64,000 nucleotides of DNA from a virus. Shown one piece after another: positions 2,663-54,940 of the stretch; position 1 is the first letter of the stretch, and each line of letters starts with the position of its first letter. Made by a program: the position numbers and the translations under genes. Under the pieces are notes generated by a model that did not search any database, was not told where the DNA came from, and saw only the letters and a list, made by a program, of their open reading frames with translations. The DNA lies in the IMG/VR virus record IMGVR_UViG_3300035661_000043, positions 1-64,000 of that record, one strand, 5' to 3'.

Positions 2663-4366
2663 ATGGCAAACACCCTACTATTAAAGCGATAGTCAACGGC
2701 TAGTGCCGCACCTACTACAGGACAACTAGCACTAGGTGAACTCGCAGTCAATAGTAGGGATGGTACTTTATTTCTAAAACGAAATAATGGTACTACTGAC
2801 TAGATCGTAAAAGTCTGGACAGATCAATAGCTGATAAACACCAGTCAGCTCATCAATAACTCAAATTTCATCACAAGCACTCAAGCCACAACAACAATCG
2901 GTTCTGGTGTAACAGGTCCTATCTTCCTGAACATTTAGAACTCAGGTGTCGGAAATTCTTCAGGTTTCAACTTCTTGAAGTCTAATGATGCTGCTGGTAT
3001 ATCTGTAACAGAATTCTCAGATGATTCTACTCTGTATGAATTCTTCATGTCTGATAATCCAGATGGAGGAGATTCATTTAGTTGGAGATGGACTGACTGG
3101 CAGGGTGCCAACGGATTATGGAACCCAATGTTGATTGGTGGCAGATGTACGACAGTACTGTCATCCACAATTTCAATGAATGGTGTCCTGACGCAGTCAA
3201 TGTCTCGTTGGTATACGACTAGAAACACAACTGCTGCTAATGCTGCACAGAATATTGCCGCTTACAACACACCTGCTTTCTTGAAGATTGAAGGCACAGG
3301 CACTGTGACAATCACAACTCTGGATATCAATGGATATTCAGCCTGGAGTGGTGTAGTTTTCAGCATTCGGTTCATATCCAGTACTCAATTTGAGTGGGGG
3401 TATGGTGGTCCGAATTTCACTGCTGTCCAGACCTTAGATCTTGTAGAAGGTCCTATTACACTTTCAAATGGCGTAGTTGTTACATTTTCCTAGACAACAG
3501 GTGCTGTTACAGGTGACCGGTTCCAGTGCAGAATTTGGTACATAACGAACAATGATCTGCAGACTACACAGTTCAGAGGGAATATCTATCCAGACGGGTA
3601 GAATACAAGAACTAGCGGTACTGCTTCTAGATACTGGTCAAATACATACTCTCAAATCTTCACATCTAGTGCTACTACGGGTACCGCACCACTTTCTATT
3701 GCATCAACTACACTAGTCAACAATCTAAACGCGGATTTGTTGGACGGTCAGCATGCAAGTTCATTCCAACCAGCATTAGTCTCTGGGACTAATATCAAAA
3801 CCGTAAACGGTATTTCTGTTTTAGGCACAGGAGATATCAACACATCTGGTGCTTCTGCATATGAAAAGCAAATATTCAGTGCTCCTACCGCGGGACAAAC
3901 ATCATTCACAATCTCAGGCGGTTATCCTGCTAATAAGATTGAATTCTTCAGAAACGGGGTGAAGTTAGTAGCGGGTCTGGATTATGATGCAACATCTGGG
4001 GCTTAGATCACACTTGTTGGATTCTCTGCAGCTGCAGGTGATGTGTATGAGGCGTACTGGTTTGATTCGATTACTACATAGACACAAGTTCAAGTAAGAG
4101 ATGGTGGGTAGGATTCTGGCATGATCATGGACTCTTTCCCGGGTGAAGTGTGGCATATGAAAGCGGGGAATAGTCTCAGACTTCCGGCTAATCCAGCTAT
4201 TGGCAGTTTTGTTAAGATGCACAAATCATCTGGTTTCTAGATGTCTATCCTGCGAAATGGTTAGAATATCATGGGGTTGCAGGAAGACATGACAGTCAAT
4301 GTATACACTGCAGTATAGATAGACTTTATATATGTAAGTGCTACTTATGGGTGGGCAGTTAACTGA
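2663..4366 (+). CDS. Tail-fibre-like structural protein, TAG-rich
   Basis: 567 residues with about twelve in-frame TAG, among the most TAG-dense genes here; read as stops it falls into small pieces. With Ser the N-terminus is LLLKRSSTASAAPTTGQLAL, like the 1073 gene. It contains the DADLLDGQ-type module (NADLLDGQHASSF) followed by SGTNIKTVNGISVLGTGDI, shared with the 4366 and 6874 genes. The stop TGA overlaps the next ATG. A likely adhesin or fibre subunit, without homology proof. Confidence 0.7.
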
Positions 4367-15739: not shown

Positions 15740-17902
15740 ATGTCTAATCCAATATTCAATTTTTTCGGGTTCTAGATCAAACGATCTGAAGAGGAGAAAC
15801 AGCTTCCTAAATCAGTTGTTGCTCCAAATCTAGCAGATGGTTCTATTGTTATTAATCAGAACTTGGGAACTGGTATTCTCGGAGACTCTTATACTCTTGC
15901 ATTTGACCCAGACGGTCAGATCACAAATGAGATCGATCTCGTTCGTAGATATAGAGAATTGTGCAGATATCCAGAAGTAGCAGAAGCTATTGAAGATATC
16001 GTTAACGAAGCAGTGATTATCGAAGGTGAAGATAAACCTGTTGAAATCAATCTTGAGTATCTTAAGATCTCAGATTCAATCAAGAAAAAGATCACAGAAG
16101 AATTTGCCAAGATTCTTTCACTGATGAACTTCAATGAAGAAGGGTATGATCTATTTGAAAGATGGTATGTGGATGGGAAGATCTTTTTCCATATATTACT
16201 GGATGAAAATCATTCAAATGGTATCAAAGAGCTAAGATTAATTGACCCACGTAAGATCAAGAAGATCAAGAATGTGATCAAAGAGAAATTAGCAAGTGGT
16301 GTAGAGATTGTCAGGGAAGTACAAGAATATTACATATACAATGACAAGGGTATTGCAGGCGGCACTAGTCAGGGTGTAAGATTAAGTGTTGATTCTGTTG
16401 TGTACTGCCATTCAGGTCTGATTGATTCACAAACTGGATTAGTTCAATCATATTTGCATAAAGCAATCAAACCTGCTAACCAATTAAAAATGTTGGAAGA
16501 AGCGGTTATTATCTACAGATATACTCGTGCACCAGAGCGTAGGGTATTCTATATTGATGTTGGAAATTTACCAAAAGGTAAAGCTGAGCAATACGTCAGT
16601 GATATGATGAATAAGTTCAAGAACAAGTTATCATATGATGCTGTTACTGGGGAATTGGCAGATTCTAAGAGACACTTGTGTTTGGATATGAGCACACAAG
16701 TACCATTGCTTGATGGCAGAACACTGTCTATTTCCGAGATTGCTGCAGAGATGGATCAATCAGATAAACCTCTATGGGCATATTCATGTGATCCAGTGAC
16801 TGGCAAATTTGTGCCGGGTAAAATTACCTGGGCCGGTGTATCTAGACCAAATGCACAAGTCATGCGTATTACTCTTGATAATGGAAAAACCATTACTTGC
16901 ACCCCAGATCACAAATTTCCAGTTTGGGACAAGGGATTCGTAAAAGCTGAAGATCTATATATTGGCGAATCAATGATCCCGCATTATACTCGTTGGAAGG
17001 AAATTGCTAAGGGTTCTTCCAAGAATTACGAACAAATTTTCGAGAATGATACTGGAGAATGGAAATTCACACATCAAGCAGTATCCGATTGGAAAGATTG
17101 TATTACATCGCGCCGTTCATCTACATCATGTGTTTCTTCTGATAACAGTGCAGATAGACAAATTGATTCTCTAATGTTCCGTAACCATAAAATTGCAAAA
17201 ATTGAGTGGTTAGAAGAAACAATGGACACTGGATGTCTGACTATTGACGGAGATGAAGAATTCCACAATTATCATACATTCGCTCTATCTGCCGGAATTT
17301 ACACCCAGAACTAGATGATGGAAGATTTCTGGATGCCTAGGCGCGGAGATAAATCAACAGAAATCACGACACTTCCAGGGGGTCAGGGTCTCGGTCAGTT
17401 GGATGATTTGGATTATTTCAAGGATAAACTATATCGTTCTTTAAATGTACCTAAATCTAGATTCGTTCCAGATAGTGGTTTCTCTATTGGTAGATCAGAT
17501 ACTATTTCTAGGGATGAAGTAAAATTTGCTAAATTTGTTGGCAAATTGCGCAACAAATTCGGAAATATCTTTTTAGATATATTGCGCGTTCAATTGATTT
17601 CTAAGGGTATTTTCTCTAGTAAAGATTGGGAACAATTTAAAGAGAAGATTAAAGTCATTTACGCTAAAGATAACTTCTTTGCCGAATTAAAAGAAAATGA
17701 AGTTCTTACTACTAGACTTTAGACTGCATTGCAATTGGATCCATTTGTCGGCAAATATGTAAGCAAAGAATACATCCAAAGAAAAGTACTAAGATTCACA
17801 GATGATGAAATAAAAGAAATAAATACACAAATGGAAGCCGAGATCAAATCTGGTGATATTACTGACCCAGTAGCAATGATGCAAGAACCACCTCAGGCAT
17901 AA
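15740..17902 (+). CDS. 20: Portal protein gp20 with in-frame intein
   Basis: 720 codons, of which 211 are an intein. Extein landmarks of T4-like portals: FFGFSIKRSEEE (TAG as Ser), RRYRELCRYPEVAEAIEDIV, RWYVDGKIFFHI, ELRLIDPRKIKKIK, PERRVFYIDVGNLPKGKAEQ, then MMEDFWMPRR, TTLPGG and LNVPKSR. Removing the intein gives RHL-Ser-MMEDFW, matching the HMSM(L)EDFW of relatives; the Ser is TAG 17312-17314. The portal is the dodecameric vertex through which DNA is packaged. Confidence 0.92.
16679..17311 (+). other. Portal intein (contiguous, 211 aa)
   Basis: Begins with Cys (CLDMSTQVPLLDG, block A) after RHL. It has a block-B-like TCTPDHKFPVW and ends FHNYHTFALSAGIYTQN, with the terminal Asn preceded by Gln instead of the usual His. 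The +1 extein residue is the TAG codon. No LAGLIDADG or HNH nuclease motif is evident in the central part, so it is probably a mini-intein. Splicing requires Cys/Ser/Thr at +1, which holds if TAG is serine. Confidence 0.88.
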
Positions 17903-37667: not shown

Positions 37668-39169
37668 CAAGATTTTATACAAACGTAGTAAGACTCGGGA
37701 ACAATATCTGTGTCCGAGAGCAAACAGAAACTGGACCTAGCAAGTTTAAAACTCGTTACCAGCCAACATTATTTCTAAAGACCGACAAGGAGTCAAAGTT
37801 TAAGACTCTGTACGGAGATTTTGCTAAACCCGTGCAACAAGACTCGATGTCAGAAGCACGAGAGTTCATCAAGAAATATGAAGGTGTACGTGGGGTAGAA
37901 TTGTTCGGTCAGCATAACTGGGTTCTTCAGTACATTAATGAGACATATTCTGGATCAGTTAACTTTGACCCAAAACTGATTTCTGCTTGGTCTTTAGATA
38001 TAGAAACGCTATTGTTTGAAGATGCAGAAGGAAAGATTACTGGCTTCCCGAATGCAGAGACAGGTGATTGTGAAATCACTCTTATCACAATTCAATGTCT
38101 GCAGAGCAAACAGTGCTTCACATTTGGCTCACGCGAGTATAAAGGTGAAAAAGTTCTTGATAGCAGGTACATGAACTGTGGATCTGAAAGGGAAATGCTT
38201 AAGCAGTTCATACAATTTTGGCAACTCAAATCAGTAGAAGTGATCACTGGATGGAACATCGAGCGGTTTGATATTCCGTACATTGTGAATCGTGTAAAAG
38301 TAGTTCTCGGAGAAGAATGGGCCAAGAAGTTATCACCGTGGGAATCAGTTGAAGTTATTAAGAAACGTGTCTCCGGTGGGTTTGGTGGAGATGAAGAAAT
38401 CATCTGTAATATTGCTGGTGTGTCTATTCTAGACTATATGGCTCTGTACAAGAAATTTGTGTTTGTAAAACATGAATCTTACTCGTTAGGGCATATTGCA
38501 CAGGAAGAACTTGGTGAGACCAAATTGGACCACTCGGAGTATAAGAACTTCAATGAGTTCTACTGGAAGGGGTTTGATGCAAAGTATGTTGACTATAACA
38601 TCCGAGATACGCAACTTGTTGCTCGTCTTGAAGATAAATTGAAACTTATTGAGTTAGTCTATACTCTGGCATATTTGGCAAAAATCAACTTTACAGATGT
38701 TTTCAGTCCTGTAAAGATGTGGGATTCTATTCTCCACAACAGGCTGTTTGGTGAAAATACGGTTGTGCCACTGAAGGAACACAATCCTGATGGTGACAAG
38801 CACATCGAAGGTGCTTATGTAAAGGACCCATCAGTTGGTATGCATGAATGGGTTATCTCATTAGATGCTACAAGCTTGTATCCATCCATCATGATGACAC
38901 TGAATATCAGCCCAGAAACATATCGAGGTATTGACAAAGAATACAATGTTGATTCTTTGTTGGCTGGGAAAATGAAGTTGGATCCACCTCAAAATCAAGC
39001 ATGGGGACCGAATGGTTCCAAGTTTGAAATTACTACACGCGGTGTTATCCCAAAGATTGTAGAAGAAATGATGGCAGATAGGAAATCTTCTAAAAAGAAA
39101 ATGCTTAATAGGACTCAGGATCTGGAACACATCAAGACAGAAATCACCAGGCGTGGATTGAAAGTGTAA
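37664..39169 (+). CDS. 43: DNA polymerase gp43, fragment 1 (N-terminal, exonuclease, palm start)
   Basis: 501 residues, no TAG. Family B polymerase: exonuclease motif WSLDIETL, GWNIERFDIPYI, YNIRDTQLVARL; palm motif A as SLDATSLYPSIMM. It stops at TAA after ITRRGLKV, in the fingers region. The rest continues in the gene at 39340. The 170-nt gap holds no gene or intron core that I recognise. Fission here recalls the split gp43A/B of some Aeromonas phages. Confidence 0.92.
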   Translation: MTRFYTNVVRLGNNICVREQTETGPSKFKTRYQPTLFLKTDKESKFKTLYGDFAKPVQQDSMSEAREFIKKYEGVRGVELFGQHNWVLQYINETYSGSVNFDPKLISAWSLDIETLLFEDAEGKITGFPNAETGDCEITLITIQCLQSKQCFTFGSREYKGEKVLDSRYMNCGSEREMLKQFIQFWQLKSVEVITGWNIERFDIPYIVNRVKVVLGEEWAKKLSPWESVEVIKKRVSGGFGGDEEIICNIAGVSILDYMALYKKFVFVKHESYSLGHIAQEELGETKLDHSEYKNFNEFYWKGFDAKYVDYNIRDTQLVARLEDKLKLIELVYTLAYLAKINFTDVFSPVKMWDSILHNRLFGENTVVPLKEHNPDGDKHIEGAYVKDPSVGMHEWVISLDATSLYPSIMMTLNISPETYRGIDKEYNVDSLLAGKMKLDPPQNQAWGPNGSKFEITTRGVIPKIVEEMMADRKSSKKKMLNRTQDLEHIKTEITRRGLKV

Positions 39170-39339
39170 GATCAAAAAGTTTCCGACTATTGATTTAGCT
39201 GGGACTTTTGTATATTACCAAATACACGTTCACTTTTCTTCATTCCCACAAACGGGAAGTAATTTTTCTTCGATATCAACAATTTTCAACCTTTACTATA
39301 TCACCATATAGTATATTTTATTAGAACAGGACCTCATAT

Positions 39340-39984
39340 ATGGATCTTTCTAAACTTTCCGATTCCGAATTGTTAAAACTCTACAATAAAGCAGAAGAGG
39401 AAATCTCCGCTCTTGATAACTTACAAATGGCACTCAAGATCTCTTTAAATTCACTTTACGGTGGAATTGGAAATCAAGGGTTCCGTTTCTTCAACTCTAA
39501 TGTTGCAGAGACAATTACATTGACCGGTCAGTATGTTCTTCGGTCTATTGAGCAAAGCATCGATGATAAACTGAATAAAGTATTCAAGACAGAGGGTCAC
39601 AAGTACCTGATCTATATCGACACTGATTCTGTCGTCGGAGATACAAAAATTTTAGTTAACGGCACTGAAACAACAATTGCAGATTATTATGATTCTAAGA
39701 CGGAGTTCATCAAAAGAGATGAATTTAATAAAGACTATGTTAAAAAATGTGATTCAGATTACACACCTACTGTGAATCCAAATACACAGGTAATGGAAAA
39801 TAAATCTGTTTCATATGTTATGAAACATAGAGTAAAAAAGAGAATGTATAAAATTACTGTTGGTGGAAAAGAAGTAATTTGTACGAATGATCACTCAATT
39901 ATTGTACGCAGGAATAGTCTCATTCTTTCCGTTATTCCCTCAGACATTCTGAAGACTGATGAGTTAATACATATTAAGCACTGA
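39340..39984 (+). CDS. 43: DNA polymerase gp43, fragment 2 with split-intein N-part
   Basis: Own ATG with AGGACC upstream. MDLSKLSDSELLKLYNKAEE, then ALKISLNSLYGGIGN (motif B) and YIDTD. From the next Ser an intein begins: SVVGDTKILVNGT (block A), KITVGGKEVICTNDHSIIV (block B), and it ends at TGA after about 115 intein residues. The catalytic motif C (YIDTDS) is interrupted between D and S. Trans-splicing with the 40044 gene is needed. Confidence 0.9.
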   Translation: MDLSKLSDSELLKLYNKAEEEISALDNLQMALKISLNSLYGGIGNQGFRFFNSNVAETITLTGQYVLRSIEQSIDDKLNKVFKTEGHKYLIYIDTDSVVGDTKILVNGTETTIADYYDSKTEFIKRDEFNKDYVKKCDSDYTPTVNPNTQVMENKSVSYVMKHRVKKRMYKITVGGKEVICTNDHSIIVRRNSLILSVIPSDILKTDELIHIKH

Positions 39985-40043
39985 ATTTGTATGAACTAAT
40001 ACATGACTAAAGATCGTGATTTAATTATAGAAAGATTAAAAAA

Positions 40044-40997
40044 ATGCAATTAGAGTTCACAACTGATTTTCAGATTGAAGATTTAGGTGAGATCGAAGAA
40101 GATGTTTATGATATTGAAACAGAAGATAATCATAATTTTTTCGGCAACGGTGTTTTAGTACACAACAGTTGTTACATCAATGTCGCCCCAGTTGTACAGA
40201 AATATCTATCAGATATTCCCGATAAGTCTGAGATTATTAAACGATTAGAAAAATTGGCAGTTGATATTATTCAAAAGAATGTCAATGATATTGTGAATGA
40301 TGTCTGTAAGCAAATGAATGTCTACGAGAACAAACTATCATTTAAATTAGAGGTATGTGCAGATAAGGCAATCTGGTTAGCAAAGAAAAAATATGTAGTA
40401 CGTGCATATTCTTCTGAGGGTGTTACATACTCAAAACCAAAATATAAAACGATTGGTTTGGAACTCGTCCGTTCGTCTACTCCAATGTTTATCCGTAAGA
40501 AGTTGAAGGATGTTCTCCCATTGGTGTTTGACACAGATCAAAGCACAATTCAGAAATTTTTATTAGAAACTCGTAAAGAGTTTGATCAATTGTCGGTGCA
40601 AGAAATTGCATTTCCAAGATCTGCTAACAATTTAGAGGAATATTCCGATAGTCAAAATATCTACAAAAAGGGTGCTGGTGTGTCTACACCAATACATGCC
40701 CGCGCAAGTTTGTTGTATAATGATCTAATACGGAAGAAAAATCTTCAAGGGCAGTTTCCAATTATTGTTTCTGGTGCGAAGATCAAATTTGTGTATCTAA
40801 AACTACCAAATACTCTAAGAGAGAATGTCATTGCTTTCCCTGCTGATGAGACTCTTCCTATTGAATTTGACCTACACCAGAAGGTTGACAGAGATATTCA
40901 ATGGGACAAAACGATGATTGCTTCTACACAGATCATTCTAGATTCAATTGGTTGGTCAGCTATCGAACAGTCAAGTTTAGATGACTTTTTTGGTTAA
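40044..40997 (+). CDS. 43: DNA polymerase gp43, fragment 3 with split-intein C-part
   Basis: The first 41 residues are a classical split-intein C-part, ending EEDVYDIETEDNHNFFGNG then VLVHN; the next residue, Ser, restores TDS-CYINV. The polymerase thumb follows, and the C-terminus ends SSLDDFFG, a clamp-binding peptide like the T4 gp43 tail. Only 59 nt separate it from fragment 2. No endonuclease gene lies between them. Confidence 0.9.
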   Translation: MQLEFTTDFQIEDLGEIEEDVYDIETEDNHNFFGNGVLVHNSCYINVAPVVQKYLSDIPDKSEIIKRLEKLAVDIIQKNVNDIVNDVCKQMNVYENKLSFKLEVCADKAIWLAKKKYVVRAYSSEGVTYSKPKYKTIGLELVRSSTPMFIRKKLKDVLPLVFDTDQSTIQKFLLETRKEFDQLSVQEIAFPRSANNLEEYSDSQNIYKKGAGVSTPIHARASLLYNDLIRKKNLQGQFPIIVSGAKIKFVYLKLPNTLRENVIAFPADETLPIEFDLHQKVDRDIQWDKTMIASTQIILDSIGWSAIEQSSLDDFFG

Positions 40998-44257: not shown

Positions 44258-45867
44258 ACTATGAAAAATATATTGATGATCACTTCCCATTTGAGAAGTT
44301 CAATCCAGGTCAGAAGGAAGCAATTGATTTCGCCGTAACAAATCTAGTTGCAGGAAAAAAGCATATTCTTATGGAACTGCCGACAGGTATAGGCAAGAGT
44401 GCTATTGCTACAACAGTACATAGAGTCATGCGTCAGATCAAAAAGGGTAAAGAGAATTGGAAAACTGCAATTATTACTGCTACTAAAGGTCTACAAGAGC
44501 AGTATCTTCATGATGATAAGGAGATTTTCTCGTTAAAAGGTCGTCAGAACTACCCCTGTTCAAAGAATGCAGGACATTATGGCTCTGCAAAATGTAAACA
44601 AACTTGTAATGCGGGTGGCTGTGTTCCTGCTTCATCTTGTGATTACTTCAAGACCCGCGAGGTGTGGAGACTACACGCAGATCTTCGTTTGACTAACACA
44701 TCTTTCCAAATTAAGGCACCAACAGTATTGATTGGTGATGACAAATCTCGTGCATCACTCACTGTTATCGATGAATGTCATGAGATTGATGAGCAGTTGG
44801 TGAAACATGCTGCTTTGACTATAGATGTTGTCGATCTTACTTCTATCGAAAAGGTGGCCGGCAAGAACTTCACCGGTAGATTTGCTGCTTTCATCAATGA
44901 CTTCTCCGAGTATGATGAGGGTTTCTATTTTGTCCCTGACGCGGATATCCAGAAATCTGCCAAGGAACTCATTGATGCTATCGATACTAAGGCAGGTGAA
45001 CTTGAGCAGAAAGCCAAGGAGTCTTCTCATGGGCATGGGTCTATTGCAGCGGTGATAGATGATCTGAGAGGTTGGGCAACAGCTCTGCATTCTTTTGCAT
45101 TTTCTGGTGGTGAGTGGATTATTGAAGAATATGCATATGCTCAGAAACTGGTCTTAACACCAGTATATACGCATCAGGTTGTGAACAAAGGTCTGTATGA
45201 CAAATGTGATCAGTTTATTCATATGTCGGCTACGATCTGCGGATTTGATGAGTATATGAAAACGATGGGGATAGATAAGAAGGATGTCGCTGTGATCGAT
45301 GCGGCAAATCCCATTCCAGTCGAACAAAGACCTGTGTATGCGATGAATGCTATCAAAGTGTCAGGATAGTTCGATAAAGAGAAATTGGCGACATTTGTTG
45401 ACAAGATTATTGATCGACATGGGACTGATAATGGTGTTATTCATACCGTGTCTTTCCAACTTGCTAAAGACATCCGTGATAACTCTAAACACAAGAAACG
45501 TATGGTGATCAGTAACGACAGGGATGAAATTATCTCTCTTTTGAAAAAGAAGAATATGATTTTATTGAGTCCCAGTGTTGAGTCGGGATATGACTTCAAG
45601 GGAGATCTTGCTAGATGGCAAATTCTACCAAAGGTACCTTACGAGTATCTTGGTAACCCAAGAATAAAATTGTTAATGAACAGGTAGAATAAATGGTACG
45701 CCAGACAAGCTATTCTTAGAATTGTTCAATCATCTGGTAGAGCTGTCAGAGGTATGGATGATTATGCCACAACATACATCATCGATAGTAACTTTAGCAC
45801 GTTGTGGCATGGAAATCAGGAATTATTCCCGAGTTGGTTCAAAGAAGCTGTCACTGTTGTAAAATAA
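44254..45867 (+). CDS. DinG/XPD-like Fe-S helicase
   Basis: 537 residues with two TAG; TTG start overlapping the gp41 TGA (TTGA). Motifs: FNPGQKEAIDFA, MELPTGIGKSAIA (Walker A), four Cys (CSKNAGHYG..CKQTCNAGGC region) where XPD/DinG helicases bind 4Fe-4S, VIDECHEID (DEAH-like), MSATI, SPSVESGYDFKG and SSGRAVRG (motif VI). A 5'-3' DNA helicase, probably for R-loop or repair work. Confidence 0.85.
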
Positions 45868-47809: not shown

Positions 47810-48028
47810 ATGAAAACAAAACAACAAATTGCCCTTGTTCTTTATCATCTCGACCCAATGGGTACTTGCTGTAAAGAGAACGAACTCTTCGATGAGTATG
47901 AAAAAGAAGCAGATATGATTGCTTCTGGTTGTTCGTTGAAAGCTGTATTCTTTTCTTGCTTTTGGAAAGGTTGTTTAAATAATAGACAACTGAAAGAAAT
48001 CAAGGAAAAGATCGATGCTATAGTTTAA
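47810..48028 (+). CDS. Small hypothetical protein (72 aa)
   Basis: MKTKQQIALVLYHLDPMGTC, with four Cys and an acidic/helical centre (DEYEKEADMIASG). The ATG lies at the expected transcription start. No family recognised. Typical phage early gene. Confidence 0.58.
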   Translation: MKTKQQIALVLYHLDPMGTCCKENELFDEYEKEADMIASGCSLKAVFFSCFWKGCLNNRQLKEIKEKIDAIV

Positions 48029-48275: not shown

Positions 48276-48308
48276 GCATAACAAGAACGATACTTTATAT
48301 CTTGTTAG

Positions 48309-48340
48309 GGTCTTAGGGAAACTTAAGATCCTTTTTGTTT
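48309..48340 (+). terminator. Terminator
   Basis: GGTCTTAG-GGAAA-CTTAAGATCC followed by TTTTTG. Confidence 0.7.
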
Positions 48341-48372
48341 ATGATCTGCGATACTTTTAATCAAAGTTGTGT

Positions 48373-48378
48373 TATAAT
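48373..48378 (+). promoter_or_regulatory. Early promoter
   Basis: CTTTTAATCAAAGTTGTGT-TATAAT; the following ATG is six bases away. Confidence 0.8.
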
Positions 48379-48384
48379 AAACAC

Positions 48385-48567
48385 ATGAAAACAAAACTTC
48401 AAACTGTTGTGTTAGGTGGGAGAGCTTATGTGGGTGGATTCATAAATCAAAACAACTGGGTTGTGGATCTGAAGGGAAGAAATGTAGCTGAGTGCTATAG
48501 CAAAGAGGTTGCAAGAGCTCTTGCAAAAGAACTCAACAAAATGTTTGAATACGGTAACAGCTTTTAA
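48385..48567 (+). CDS. Small hypothetical protein (60 aa)
   Basis: MKTKLQTVVLGGRAYVGGFI, then NNWVVDLKGRNVAECYSKEV and an amphipathic C-terminal helix. The first residues match the 47810 protein because both start in the conserved initial transcript. Likely early. No family recognised. Confidence 0.58.
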   Translation: MKTKLQTVVLGGRAYVGGFINQNNWVVDLKGRNVAECYSKEVARALAKELNKMFEYGNSF

Positions 48568-48579
48568 TCAAAGTTGTGT

Positions 48580-48585
48580 TATAAT
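48580..48585 (+). promoter_or_regulatory. Early promoter of structured RNA 1
   Basis: CTTTTAATCAAAGTTGTGT-TATAAT, 38-43 bases before the long stem at 48623. Confidence 0.78.
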
Positions 48586-48622
48586 AAAAGAAAAACAAGT
48601 GATCGGACTTGTTTGGATGGAT

Positions 48623-48726
48623 CTTTTAAAATTTGTTGTCATAACGCTTTAGTGGTTATATTCTGACACAGTGTTACACAGTACAGTCTATGAGTTTTTT
48701 AGGATGTTGACAACAAATTTTAAAAG
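48623..48726 (+). ncRNA. Structured RNA 1 closed by a perfect 18-bp stem
   Basis: 48623-48640 pairs perfectly with 48709-48726 around a 68-nt interior. It has its own early promoter and no credible reading frame. The outer 15 bases of the stem are identical to RNA 2 but the interior differs, so the two are paralogous scaffolds. Function unknown. Confidence 0.65.
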
Positions 48727-48760
48727 TTTCATTTAGTACAGCTTTTAATCAAAGTTGTGT

Positions 48761-48766
48761 TATAAT
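48761..48766 (+). promoter_or_regulatory. Early promoter of structured RNA 2
   Basis: Same consensus as the previous promoter, directly after RNA 1. Confidence 0.78.
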
Positions 48767-48811
48767 AAACACATGGAAACAAACAAGGTGATAGGGCTTT
48801 GTTTGATGGAT

Positions 48812-48917
48812 CTTTTAAAATTTGTTCTAGTTACGTGCACAATGGGTAGACATGTTGGTAGCTAAACATCAGTGGTGTTTAGAAATACGATTTGGTAACT
48901 AGAACAAATTTTAAAAG
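48812..48917 (+). ncRNA. Structured RNA 2 closed by a perfect 23-bp stem
   Basis: 48812-48834 pairs with 48895-48917 without mismatch. The 60-nt interior holds a further 7-bp hairpin (CTAAACA/TGTTTAG). Sister of RNA 1. Confidence 0.65.
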
Positions 48918-48951
48918 TTTCATTTAGTACAGCTTTTAATCAAAGTTGTGT

Positions 48952-48957
48952 TATAAT
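48952..48957 (+). promoter_or_regulatory. Early promoter of structured RNA 3
   Basis: Third tandem copy of the CTTTTAATCAAAGTTGTGT-TATAAT promoter. Confidence 0.78.
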
Positions 48958-49030
48958 AAACACATGATCCGATGATAGTGTTGGATCACAAAGGTTCATT
49001 AAAAATTAAGAACACTTTAAAAGTATAATT

Positions 49031-49150
49031 CCTAGTGTTAGAGTGTGGAGATAATCTACCCTAGCACTAGGAGCTATATTGAAGATATTTTTCCTGGGAT
49101 TTTAGCAGACCGATGGTTAGCTATCTCTCGGTTTAAGATATCTTCAATAT
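49031..49150 (+). ncRNA. Structured RNA 3, two stem-bounded modules
   Basis: CCTAGTG (49031-49037) pairs with CACTAGG (49065-49071); next, 49076-49088 pairs perfectly with 49138-49150 (13 bp) around 49 nt. It follows its own promoter. No reading frame is trusted. Confidence 0.5.
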
Positions 49151-49214
49151 GGGGGAATGGGACTGCATGGGTGATGTTGAAAGACTCAGATCGGATCATT
49201 ATAGATATTCTCCA

Positions 49215-49434
49215 CACAATTTTGTTGCATCGGACCAAGATCCGGCATGTGACTCCAGAGCAAATGAAACCGAAAGGTTTCCAACGGTTGTAAGTGACGA
49301 TGGGAGGTGATCGGAACTTTCACAATTTTGTTGCATCGGACCAAGATCCGGCATGTGACTCCAGAGCAAATGAAACCGAAAGGTTTCCAACGGTTGTAAG
49401 TGACGATGGGAGGTGATCGGAACTTTCACAATTT
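49215..49434. repeat. Tandem repeat, 106-bp unit, about 2.1 copies
   Basis: 49215-49320 is repeated exactly at 49321-49426, followed by eight bases of a third unit. Each unit contains a GAAACC-GAAA-GGTTTC hairpin and other local complementarity, which suggests a duplicated structured RNA rather than protein. No tRNA fold found. Confidence 0.8.
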
Positions 49435-49726: not shown

Positions 49727-49749
49727 GTTTTTAGAAGAAAGTAGTAAGT

Positions 49750-49837
49750 GGAGGTGCTGAGCATAAGTGAGCTCAACTGACTGTAAATCAGCCGCATCAT
49801 CAATAAGCCTGTGTAGGAGCGTTACCTGCCGCCTCCA
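49750..49837 (+). tRNA. tRNA-Tyr(GUA) in an extended stem
   Basis: Class II layout. Acceptor GGAGGTG/CGCCTCC, anticodon loop CTGTAAA (GTA), long variable arm. The T-loop AGCGTTA and a D-loop without GG are atypical; no CCA is encoded. Thirteen more base pairs outside the acceptor (49737-49749 with 49837-49849) make a 20-bp closing stem. The right arm (49829-49856) is copied at 50745-50772. Confidence 0.65.
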
Positions 49838-49956
49838 CTTACTACTTTCATATTCCCATAATTTGTTAACTTAAAAGGAAGAACATCACGAAACGTGGTA
49901 AATGTAAGTGACACTCAGATGTCTGGGTTGTCACGTTAATTCAAAATATGTGTCAC

Positions 49957-50035: not shown

Positions 50036-50111
50036 GGGACTATAGTTTAATGGTTAAAACATCACCCCTTTAAGGTGTAAGCTCTCGGTTCGAATCCGAG
50101 TAGTCCTACCA
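50036..50111 (+). tRNA. tRNA-Lys(UUU)
   Basis: Acceptor GGGACTA/TAGTCCT, A73, CCA; anticodon stem CACC/GGTG with loop CCTTTAA (C33); canonical T-arm. Confidence 0.8.
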
Positions 50112-50240
50112 TTCATATAGTAAGACCATCGACGGGTGCCATACTGCAGATTACAGCAGTCAACATTCGGTGCTCCTGCCAGGGTGCGAAAAGCTGGGTT
50201 GGCAGACTCGGCAAATTATTGATGGTCTTACTATATGAAT
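50111..50240 (+). ncRNA. Structured RNA closed by a perfect 20-bp stem
   Basis: 50111-50130 pairs without mismatch with 50221-50240. Inside are ACTGC/GCAGT and CTGCCA/TGGCAG hairpins and a GCGAAAAGC-type loop. It lies between tRNAs but does not fold as one. Class unknown. Confidence 0.6.
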
Positions 50241-50247
50241 GAATTTT

Positions 50248-50483: not shown

Positions 50484-50555
50484 GGGGTTACCGTATGGGA
50501 CGGACTCGGGGTTTGCAACCTTGATGATGCGGATCGTTACCGCATAACTCCACCA
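50484..50555 (+). tRNA. tRNA-Ala(UGC)
   Basis: Acceptor GGGGTTA/TAACTCC, A73, CCA; anticodon loop TTTGCAA; T-stem TGCGG/CCGCA with unusual loop ATCGTTA. The next about 105 bp (50556-50660) end in ATCCACCA and may hold a decayed tRNA that I cannot fold. Confidence 0.72.
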
Positions 50556-50667
50556 CAGGATAATAGAAATCCTAGGTATCTATAAGGGCTTGCCCTAGAT
50601 CATGAACACGGGATCCTTTCCACGAGGGTTTAGTGTAATGTCTCCGGCACAATCCACCAATTTTAAT

Positions 50668-50936: not shown

Positions 50937-51007
50937 GGTTCTAAGATTTTACGTAAGCATACCACTTCTTAGAAGTGGAGGAGAGAGATCGTTACTCTCT
51001 AGAACCG
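50937..51007 (+). tRNA. tRNA-like gene with UUA (ochre) anticodon
   Basis: Acceptor GGTTCTA/TAGAACC perfect, G73; anticodon stem CCACT/AGTGG, loop TCTTAGA, giving anticodon UUA with C33; T-stem GAGAG/CTCTC with loop ATCGTTA. The D-arm is hard to pair and no CCA is encoded. Short variable loop (class I). If functional it would read UAA, and perhaps UAG by wobble; it may equally be decayed. Confidence 0.45.
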
Positions 51008-51067
51008 TCCGAAATTCTAGCTGCAGGAGTAATTTCCTGTCTAGACCCGGGAAGTCATGACCCCGGG

Positions 51068-53835: not shown

Positions 53836-53910
53836 AGATTCTAGGGTGTGATAGCAGCACGATTCCCTCATAAGGAATAGGACTCCGAGCGTAACGGATA
53901 GAATCTACCA
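53836..53910 (+). tRNA. tRNA(CAU), Met or Ile2
   Basis: Acceptor AGATTCT/AGAATCT perfect, A73, CCA; anticodon stem ATTCC/GGAAT, loop CTCATAA; T-loop AGCGTAA. Confidence 0.7.
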
Positions 53911-53929
53911 AATGACAGACTTCTTTGGT

Positions 53930-54004
53930 GTGATGTTAGCTTAACAGTAAAGTCCGAGAATGTGACTCTCGTGGATATGGATGCGACTTCCATACATCAC
54001 CCCA
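53930..54004 (+). tRNA. tRNA-His(GUG) in an extended stem
   Basis: Acceptor GTGATGT/ACATCAC, C73 and CCA (C73 typical of His); anticodon stem CGAGA/TCTCG, loop ATGTGAC; T-arm ATGGA-TGCGACT-TCCAT. About nine further pairs (CTTCTTTGG/CCAAAGAAG) close leader and trailer. Confidence 0.78.
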
Positions 54005-54153
54005 AAGAAGTTTTAATGCTCCGGCTCCTCTGTCAATTTTTCAATGATGAAAGTTCATCATGACTACTACCAAAGAAACCCAAGACAACGCATCATTTGT
54101 ACAGATGGCAATGATGTGAAAAGTAAATGGAAAGCTTTTATTCATTCCTGTGA

Positions 54154-54632: not shown

Positions 54633-54896
54633 GCAAATTTAGCTCAATGGTTAGAGCAGCGGACTCATGAAAAATTGTGCACCTAGGTAGGGATGCTTAG
54701 TGTGAATGTTGTCAAATTCGAAGAAACCTAAGTCAGAAATGATATGGTAACCTCGAGCCAAGCCTGAGAAATTAGGTGCTGTGTAGAGACTAGACGGCAA
54801 CCATCTAGAACAGATGAAGGTATAGTCCAGGGAGTGGCGAAAGTCACACAAACCAGAATCCGTTGGTTACAGGTTCGAGTCCTGTAATTTGCACCA
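54633..54896 (+). tRNA. tRNA-Ile2(CAU) interrupted by a group I intron
   Basis: Exons 54633-54668 and 54857-54896. Spliced, the tRNA is flawless: acceptor GCAAATT/AATTTGC, anticodon stem GCGGA/TCCGT, loop CTCATAA, T-arm ACAGG-TTCGAGT-CCTGT, ACCA. The 5' exon ends in U and the intron ends in G, as group I splicing demands. The insertion site (CAU|AA) equals that of the Azoarcus tRNA-Ile(CAU) intron, so Ile2 (lysidine-modified) is more likely than Met. Confidence 0.9.
54669..54856 (+). ncRNA. Group I intron, IC3, Azoarcus-like (188 nt)
   Basis: Core elements in order: GTCAAATTCGAAGAAACC (P3/J3-4/P4), TAACCTCGAGCCAAGCCTGA (P6-P5'), GTGTAGAGACTAGACGGC (P8/P3'/P7), GATGAAGGTATAGTCC (P7'), then GGGAGTGGCGAAAGTCAC (P9 with GAAA loop) and ACAAACCAG. 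I recall nearly the same strings in the Azoarcus ribozyme. No endonuclease inside. Confidence 0.9.
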
Positions 54897-54940
54897 AGAA
54901 TTAATGCGAGGTTGGTATAGATAGATGGTAACCTCTTAAA

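Follow-up and report, generated by a model that had tools for sequence, protein, structure and literature searches.

A tandem pair of predicted long-stem RNAs at the head of the tRNA array of an uncultured T4-like phage

Two RNA units at the head of a phage tRNA array

The DNA analysed here, a 64,000-nucleotide stretch referred to below as the window, is part of a 79,755-bp IMG/VR virus record that carries T4-type genes for tail sheath, major capsid protein, UvsX, DNA polymerase and topoisomerase. The source virus is an uncultured aquatic T4-like phage; its major capsid protein is 61% identical to that of Pelagibacter phage HTVC008M and 59% identical to that of Methylophilales phage Melnitz. 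A tRNA array at 49.5–57.6 kb (from 49533) holds 13 tRNA genes detected by ARAGORN together with a permuted tmRNA; a group I intron interrupts its tRNA-Met at 54634–54897. Adjoining the array head, just upstream of the tRNA genes, lie two tandem units of 181 and 191 bp, RNA1 and RNA2. Both combine the same promoter-like sequence and the same 3' tail with a 5' hairpin and a long stem (Table 1).

A separately assembled IMG/VR record contains a near-identical stretch (99.9%; 6 mismatches and no gaps over ~14.5 kb) that stops inside RNA2. The best-matched relative of the region, contig L013, encodes a helicase protein 94% identical to that of the window (DNA ~80% identical over 3.5 kb); the RNA block is absent from it at the corresponding position, and there are no tRNA genes on its 12 kb. 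The helicase gene is split over two frames in the window (45369–45385), to which the second assembly aligns without gaps, and is intact (476 aa) in L013. DNA polymerase is likewise distributed over three ORFs in the window and encoded by one intact 776-aa frame in L013. The extra DNA in the polymerase gene (~220 and ~540 bp; 39127–39394 and 39632–40173) had no Rfam match and may represent introns, inteins or a split gene.

Table 1 Features of the RNA block and neighbouring array elements.
Feature	Coordinates	Strand	Basis
Intrinsic-terminator-like hairpin with T run, upstream block boundary	48307–48332	+	terminator scan
P1, promoter-like copy ahead of 60-aa ORF (48385–48567)	48354–48378	+	exact copy
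P2, promoter-like copy of RNA1	48561–48585	+	exact copy
RNA1; 25-position stem 48617–48641/48708–48732 (19-bp perfect core), interior 48642–48707	48586–48732	+	fold
RNA1 5' hairpin, 8 bp, hexaloop GAUCGG (48601–48606)	48593–48614	+	fold, loop search
P3, promoter-like copy of RNA2	48742–48766	+	exact copy
RNA2; 29-position stem 48806–48834/48895–48923 (23-bp perfect core), interior 48835–48894	48767–48923	+	fold
RNA2 5' hairpin, 10 bp, hexaloop GAUAGG (48790–48795)	48780–48805	+	fold, loop search
P4, promoter-like copy of RNA3	48933–48957	+	exact copy
RNA3, multi-branch; closing stem 48964–48973/49190–49199, long hairpin ~49074–49152	48961–49217	+	fold, z −5.9
RNA3 5' hairpin, 9 bp, hexaloop GAUAGU (48974–48979)	48965–48988	+	fold, loop search
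Degenerate tRNA-Tyr-like RNA, 18-bp perfect closing stem, tRNA core	49737–49849	+	fold, Rfam 26 bits
RNA with 21-bp stem around 90 nt without tRNA	50110–50241	+	fold, z −9.4

Exact promoter-like copies and predicted readthrough

The 25-nt sequence CTTTTAATCAAAGTTGTGTTATAAT occurs in four exact copies, P1–P4 (starting at 48354, 48561, 48742 and 48933; chance expectation 0.00), and diverged relatives of it precede other genes of the same phage. The copies are of the extended −10 type (TGTTATAAT) and did not appear in the output of a generic sigma-70 scan; because they lack a consensus −35, calling them promoters draws on their recurrence and position. A sequence-only reading of this DNA had given both RNAs the same early promoter type. 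Identity of type is borne out by P2 and P3, and early timing is plausible, since small genes all through the block have a promoter of this type ahead of them. At 47810, 48385, 48772 and similar sites, an ATG lies ~7 nt past the TATAAT box of an early-type promoter; a number of small early genes may thus have little or no leader.

No terminator-like site was found 3' of RNA1, RNA2 or RNA3, the sole one near the block being that before P1, and neither RNA1 nor RNA2 has the make-up of an intrinsic terminator (a G+C-rich hairpin followed by a T run). Given the lack of a terminator after the RNAs, P1–P4 are probably stacked and feed the tRNA array as well. If the promoters work, stacking and readthrough imply that discrete RNA1 and RNA2 would need processing.

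Shared stems, recurrent 5' hairpins and unrelated interiors

Perfect pairing extends over 19 bp in RNA1 (48623–48641/48708–48726) and 23 bp in RNA2 (48812–48834/48895–48917), enclosing interiors of 66 and 60 nt; of the 18 and 23 bp originally proposed, the second figure stands and the first needs one more pair. Through a T–T mismatch and a G–U pair, the helices lengthen to 25 and 29 positions (48617–48732 and 48806–48923). Near-perfect helices of such length are typical RNase III substrates, and both helices reach the length expected of one, about 20 bp or longer with near-perfect pairing, in agreement with the earlier proposal that the stems are long enough for this enzyme. No dinucleotide shuffle out of 200 reached the folding stability of RNA1 (z −5.3) or RNA2 (z −7.1). 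Under a model of first-order Markov sequences of the whole window, perfect stems of at least 13 bp are expected ~0.25 times per window; seven matches were observed, six of which lie at 48.6–50.25 kb, one of these six being only a cross-match between RNA1 and RNA2.

Comparison of the two units confirmed the pair as real, with small corrections to its first description. The promoters are copied, the leaders align with small changes, and 64 nt spanning the 3' arm, the tail and the next promoter are 100% identical, as expected of paralogous units. The outer stem is common to both, as had been claimed: its first 21 positions are identical and, of the four differing positions beyond, three changed on both strands with pairing kept, a pattern that carries little covariation power with two sequences. 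The interiors do differ, resembling each other no more than shuffled sequence (57% of shuffles score at least as well). A hairpin, CUAAACAUC/GGUGUUUAG, lies inside the RNA2 interior, and the RNA1 interior is almost without stable structure of its own.

Both strands of the window were scanned for stems of at least six pairs around GATNGN. Only three such hexaloops have stems of at least eight pairs, and they follow P2 (AAACAAGU-GAUCGG-ACUUGUUU), P3 (CAAACAAGGU-GAUAGG-GCUUUGUUUG) and P4 (UGAUCCGAU-GAUAGU-GUUGGAUCA), giving a loop consensus of GAU[A/C]G[G/U]. With stem sequences that differ, conservation is limited to the loop and to pairing around it.

Coding potential

No ORF of at least 40 aa begins inside either unit, which agrees with the view that no protein is encoded; smaller frames qualify that view. 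A 47-aa TTG frame from the upstream gene ends in RNA1. In addition, RNA2 contains an ATG frame of 29 aa and RNA1 a GTG frame of 17 aa, and these two have VIGL..MDLLKFV..T in common (VIGLVWMDLLKFVVIT and VIGLCLMDLLKFVLVT). On these grounds coding by RNA1 or RNA2 appears unlikely, and the shared motif led us to retain short coding transcripts as a minor rival explanation.

RNA3 and neighbouring array elements

The third, differently built RNA previously placed at 49031 exists and has its own promoter copy at 48933; it spans ~48961–49217, so that 49031 falls in its middle. The 5' strand of its 5' hairpin can alternatively pair with 49190–49199, closing the whole of RNA3. Further downstream, the tRNA at 50036–50111 has a CCA end within which the 5' arm of the 50110–50241 element begins. 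ARAGORN reports this tRNA as 'tRNA-Stop (tta)'; its 7-nt loop, CCTTTAA, centres on TTT and mitochondrial mode reads ttt, making it probably a tRNA-Lys (TTT).

At 49215–49426 a 106-bp segment, a candidate structured RNA with no Rfam match, stands in tandem in two exact copies. The core of this repeat (AGCAAAT, a variable hairpin, CAACGGTTGTAAGTGACGATGGG, a loop and ATCGGAAC) recurs at L183 (~2966–3045, minus strand) and L195 (~1472–1543), once in another tRNA-array contig and once, unannotated, directly after tRNA-Asn in Pseudomonas phage HU1. Many array tRNAs have non-standard T loops (ATCGTTA, AGCGTTA, AGCGTAA or TGCGACT versus TTCRANY), among them those at 50485–50556, 49737–49849, 53837–53911, 50937–51011 and 53930–54004, the tRNA-His of contig L100 and a case in L183. 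ARAGORN often misses such tRNAs at default settings, and other aquatic phages have the ATCGTTA loop in their arrays too. In two phages the acceptor stem of tRNA-His is lengthened to 14–18 bp by leader and trailer (53919–54011 here and L100 7165–7256).

Searches for families, homologues and targets

Neither RNA matched an Rfam family at gathering or permissive thresholds. The segment 48580–48960 gave no match to RF00005 or a related model at E values up to 5, and by eye neither a T arm nor a D arm was seen in position in the interiors. When RNA1 and RNA2 were compared with phages by distant BLAST, only weak, chance-level matches came back (best E 0.04). Exact two-arm and promoter patterns retrieved only the near-identical record from IMG/VR, which was also the sole match to the small upstream ORF; a single-arm pattern found 22 further contigs, with the second arm in none of the 22. 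The helicase as query added one further relative, L013. Pattern and BLAST searches together thus gave no homologue of RNA1 or RNA2 beyond the near-identical record. An exact 20-mer search with RNA2 across 84,980 genomes produced one match, in an unrelated Bacteroidales MAG. RNA2 and a hairpin at 49076 each aligned weakly with the interior of a long-stem element in contig L099 (16648–16789); as ~100 pairs had been compared, the RNA2 match was not counted as homology.

Complementarity of the interiors to the phage's own genome and start regions stayed within chance, the 24-nt minus-strand hits being matches of the RNAs to themselves, which speaks against an antisense action on these sequences. 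Together with the lack of homologues and Rfam matches, this leaves the proposed role as decoys, sponges or guides with no support so far. The literature searched contained no description of the RNA1/RNA2 architecture.

Long stems in the tRNA arrays of other phages

Array relatives were found through the capsid protein, and further phages were added, among them KVP40, Aeh1, S-CRM01, S-SRM01 and, as an unrelated phage, Streptomyces phage Daubenski. In these hand-picked phages, perfect stems of at least 14 bp with spacers of 30–200 nt numbered 16 in 129 kb of tRNA arrays versus 1 in 288 kb of control sequence (P = 8e-8). Some of this excess comes from tRNA acceptor stems; with elements that have tRNA or tRNA-like cores set aside by reading of the folds, the counts were 9 versus 1 (P = 2e-4). 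Among tRNA-rich phages, mostly T4-like and including the present one, arrays are thus about 20–35-fold enriched in long stems, about half of which enclose no tRNA. The arrays of S-SRM01 and Daubenski have none.

The arrays of BUCT-ZZ01, 3300043418_000120, KVP40, Aeh1 and S-CRM01 likewise contain perfect stems, of 14–21 bp around ~33–120 nt. Unlike RNA1 and RNA2, with which they share no sequence homology, many of these elements abut or contain tRNAs, and own promoters are not evident; the resemblance is one of architecture and place, not of sequence. No published description of array long stems as a class was found in the literature searched.

One sub-family, with ACCATAWWWAARCATRCTT-like arms and interiors of 56–104 nt, occurs in BUCT-ZZ01, for which Synechococcus elongatus PCC 7942 serves as laboratory host, in 3300043418_000120 and in three further contigs, and its arm starts at a tRNA ACCA end in four records. 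Elements with such arms and stems of 12–21 bp, mostly overlapping the CCA end of a tRNA, include those of contigs L156 (5204–5297) and L166 (11224–11317), with relatives in L183, L186 and L099. Between L156 and L166, 116 nt of the long-stem element, interior included, are 82% identical and there is no other match between the contigs, which shows that at least some interiors are retained, even where the surroundings differ. The L099 element at 16648–16789 ends a few nt before tRNA-Ile.

KVP40 and Aeh1 also carry tRNA-like RNAs of ~113–140 nt (KVP40, L113: 7305–7417, 8971–9091, 9102–9214, 9326–9463 and 9718–9848; Aeh1, L115: 1388–1506 and 1522–1643). Besides D and T arms they have an additional domain with a hairpin whose recurrent CUGAYAAG-like loop precedes GCA, and in some of them the acceptor stem is extended.

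Relation to known phage RNAs

Phage T4 has for decades been known to encode small non-coding RNAs in its tRNA region to which no function has been assigned. These are RNAs C and D (species 1 and 2), of 119–139 nt, by the tRNA cluster (PMC3014915, PMC9697503); they are classed as late (PMC9697503). RNA1 and RNA2 resemble them in being apparently non-coding and in their place, a T4-type phage's tRNA region, and differ in several respects. Neither rnaC nor rnaD has a perfect stem of at least 12 bp; rnaC ends 3' in a T-arm-like hairpin, which RNA1 and RNA2 lack; the late T4 RNAs lie at the far end of their cluster, whereas RNA1 and RNA2 lie at the array head; and no promoter duplication with a swapped interior is on record for them. 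A 1970s report reportedly described cutting of T4 species 1 RNA by RNase III. We file RNA1 and RNA2 as a putative variant of the poorly understood T4 RNA C/D kind, not as members of the T4 family. OOP, CfrI and SprY are short phage RNAs too, and some of them act with RNase III or as sponges; their targets are known (PMC12197685), whereas none was found for RNA1 or RNA2 in their own phage genome.

Discussion

We tentatively favour the view that RNA1 and RNA2 are early, RNase III-processed, stable small RNAs in which a constant handle carries divergent payloads. They would be tandemly duplicated non-coding transcription units, each transcribed from its own early-type promoter copy, and the handle would comprise the 5' hairpin with its GAU[A/C]G[G/U] loop, a 19–23-bp A/U-rich stem and the constant 3' tail. 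With no terminator following either unit, primary transcripts would run on towards RNA3 and the tRNA array, and the stem would be cleaved by RNase III of the host, or by an enzyme like it, leaving a stable stem-loop of ~100–150 nt. The handle would provide processing and stability; the unrelated interiors would be separate payloads, probably acting in trans and most plausibly binding host RNA or protein. Several observations weigh against this view: the searches gave neither a homologue nor a target for either interior, the RNA1 interior is nearly devoid of stable structure, the sole other assembly is near-identical and ends inside RNA2, L013 lacks the block at that position, and two unrelated interiors are equally compatible with only the stem mattering.

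The last point leads to the closest competitor, quite possible in our judgement and somewhat less probable, that the stems only process or insulate: RNase III sites would part stacked promoters, leaders and the tRNA precursor, with the interiors as filler. Identical arms and flanks around interiors that bear no resemblance, with no third relative showing retention, favour this reading, as does readthrough that needs processing in the absence of a terminator. Stems elsewhere in T4-like arrays abut tRNA ends, as at 50110–50241, in the four records with an arm at ACCA and at L099 16648–16789. RNA1 and RNA2, however, abut no tRNA, and the L156/L166 element keeps its interior as the sole match between contigs. 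A 5' hairpin and a separate promoter for each unit favour the processed small RNAs with payloads over stems that only process, and it is the former that we prefer.

The tRNA or tRNA-like cores in several array long stems (49737–49849, at 26 bits; tRNA-His here and in G008; elements of KVP40 and Aeh1) raise the idea of decayed or remodelled tRNA-like RNAs with extended acceptor stems and a lost core; for RNA1 and RNA2 this is improbable, as the interiors yielded neither a tRNA match nor a T or D arm in position. Slightly less probable still are (near-)leaderless mRNAs for tiny peptides of 29 and 17 aa with stem-controlled translation. The in-frame resemblance of VIGLVWMDLLKFVVIT and VIGLCLMDLLKFVLVT fits such mRNAs, as does an ATG roughly at the expected transcription start in P1 and P3, but RNA1 lacks one there, the frames end at different points within unrelated interiors, the non-coding 3' arm is conserved along with the 5' arm, and the substitutions show no third-position bias. 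Promoters and inverted repeats in tandem could also function as DNA, for instance as an origin of replication or a site of recombination. We consider this very improbable: each stem is preceded, in register, by a promoter and 5' hairpin, and similar stems cluster in tRNA arrays instead of marking one site per genome.

A broader proposal, which we regard as speculative and unlikely, is that T4-like phages keep, within and ahead of their tRNA arrays, a class of small-RNA cassettes with a fixed double-stranded handle and a 60–100-nt interior exchanged as a unit, of which RNA1 and RNA2 would be two. If true, such exchange would keep these phages supplied with renewable RNA decoys or baits against host RNA-targeting defences. 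With one handle and two interiors, RNA1 and RNA2 offer a natural internal comparison in which handle and payload are separately testable. Long-stem RNAs recur in the arrays of distant phages, and because KVP40, Aeh1 and BUCT-ZZ01 are cultured, their RNAs can be put to the test.
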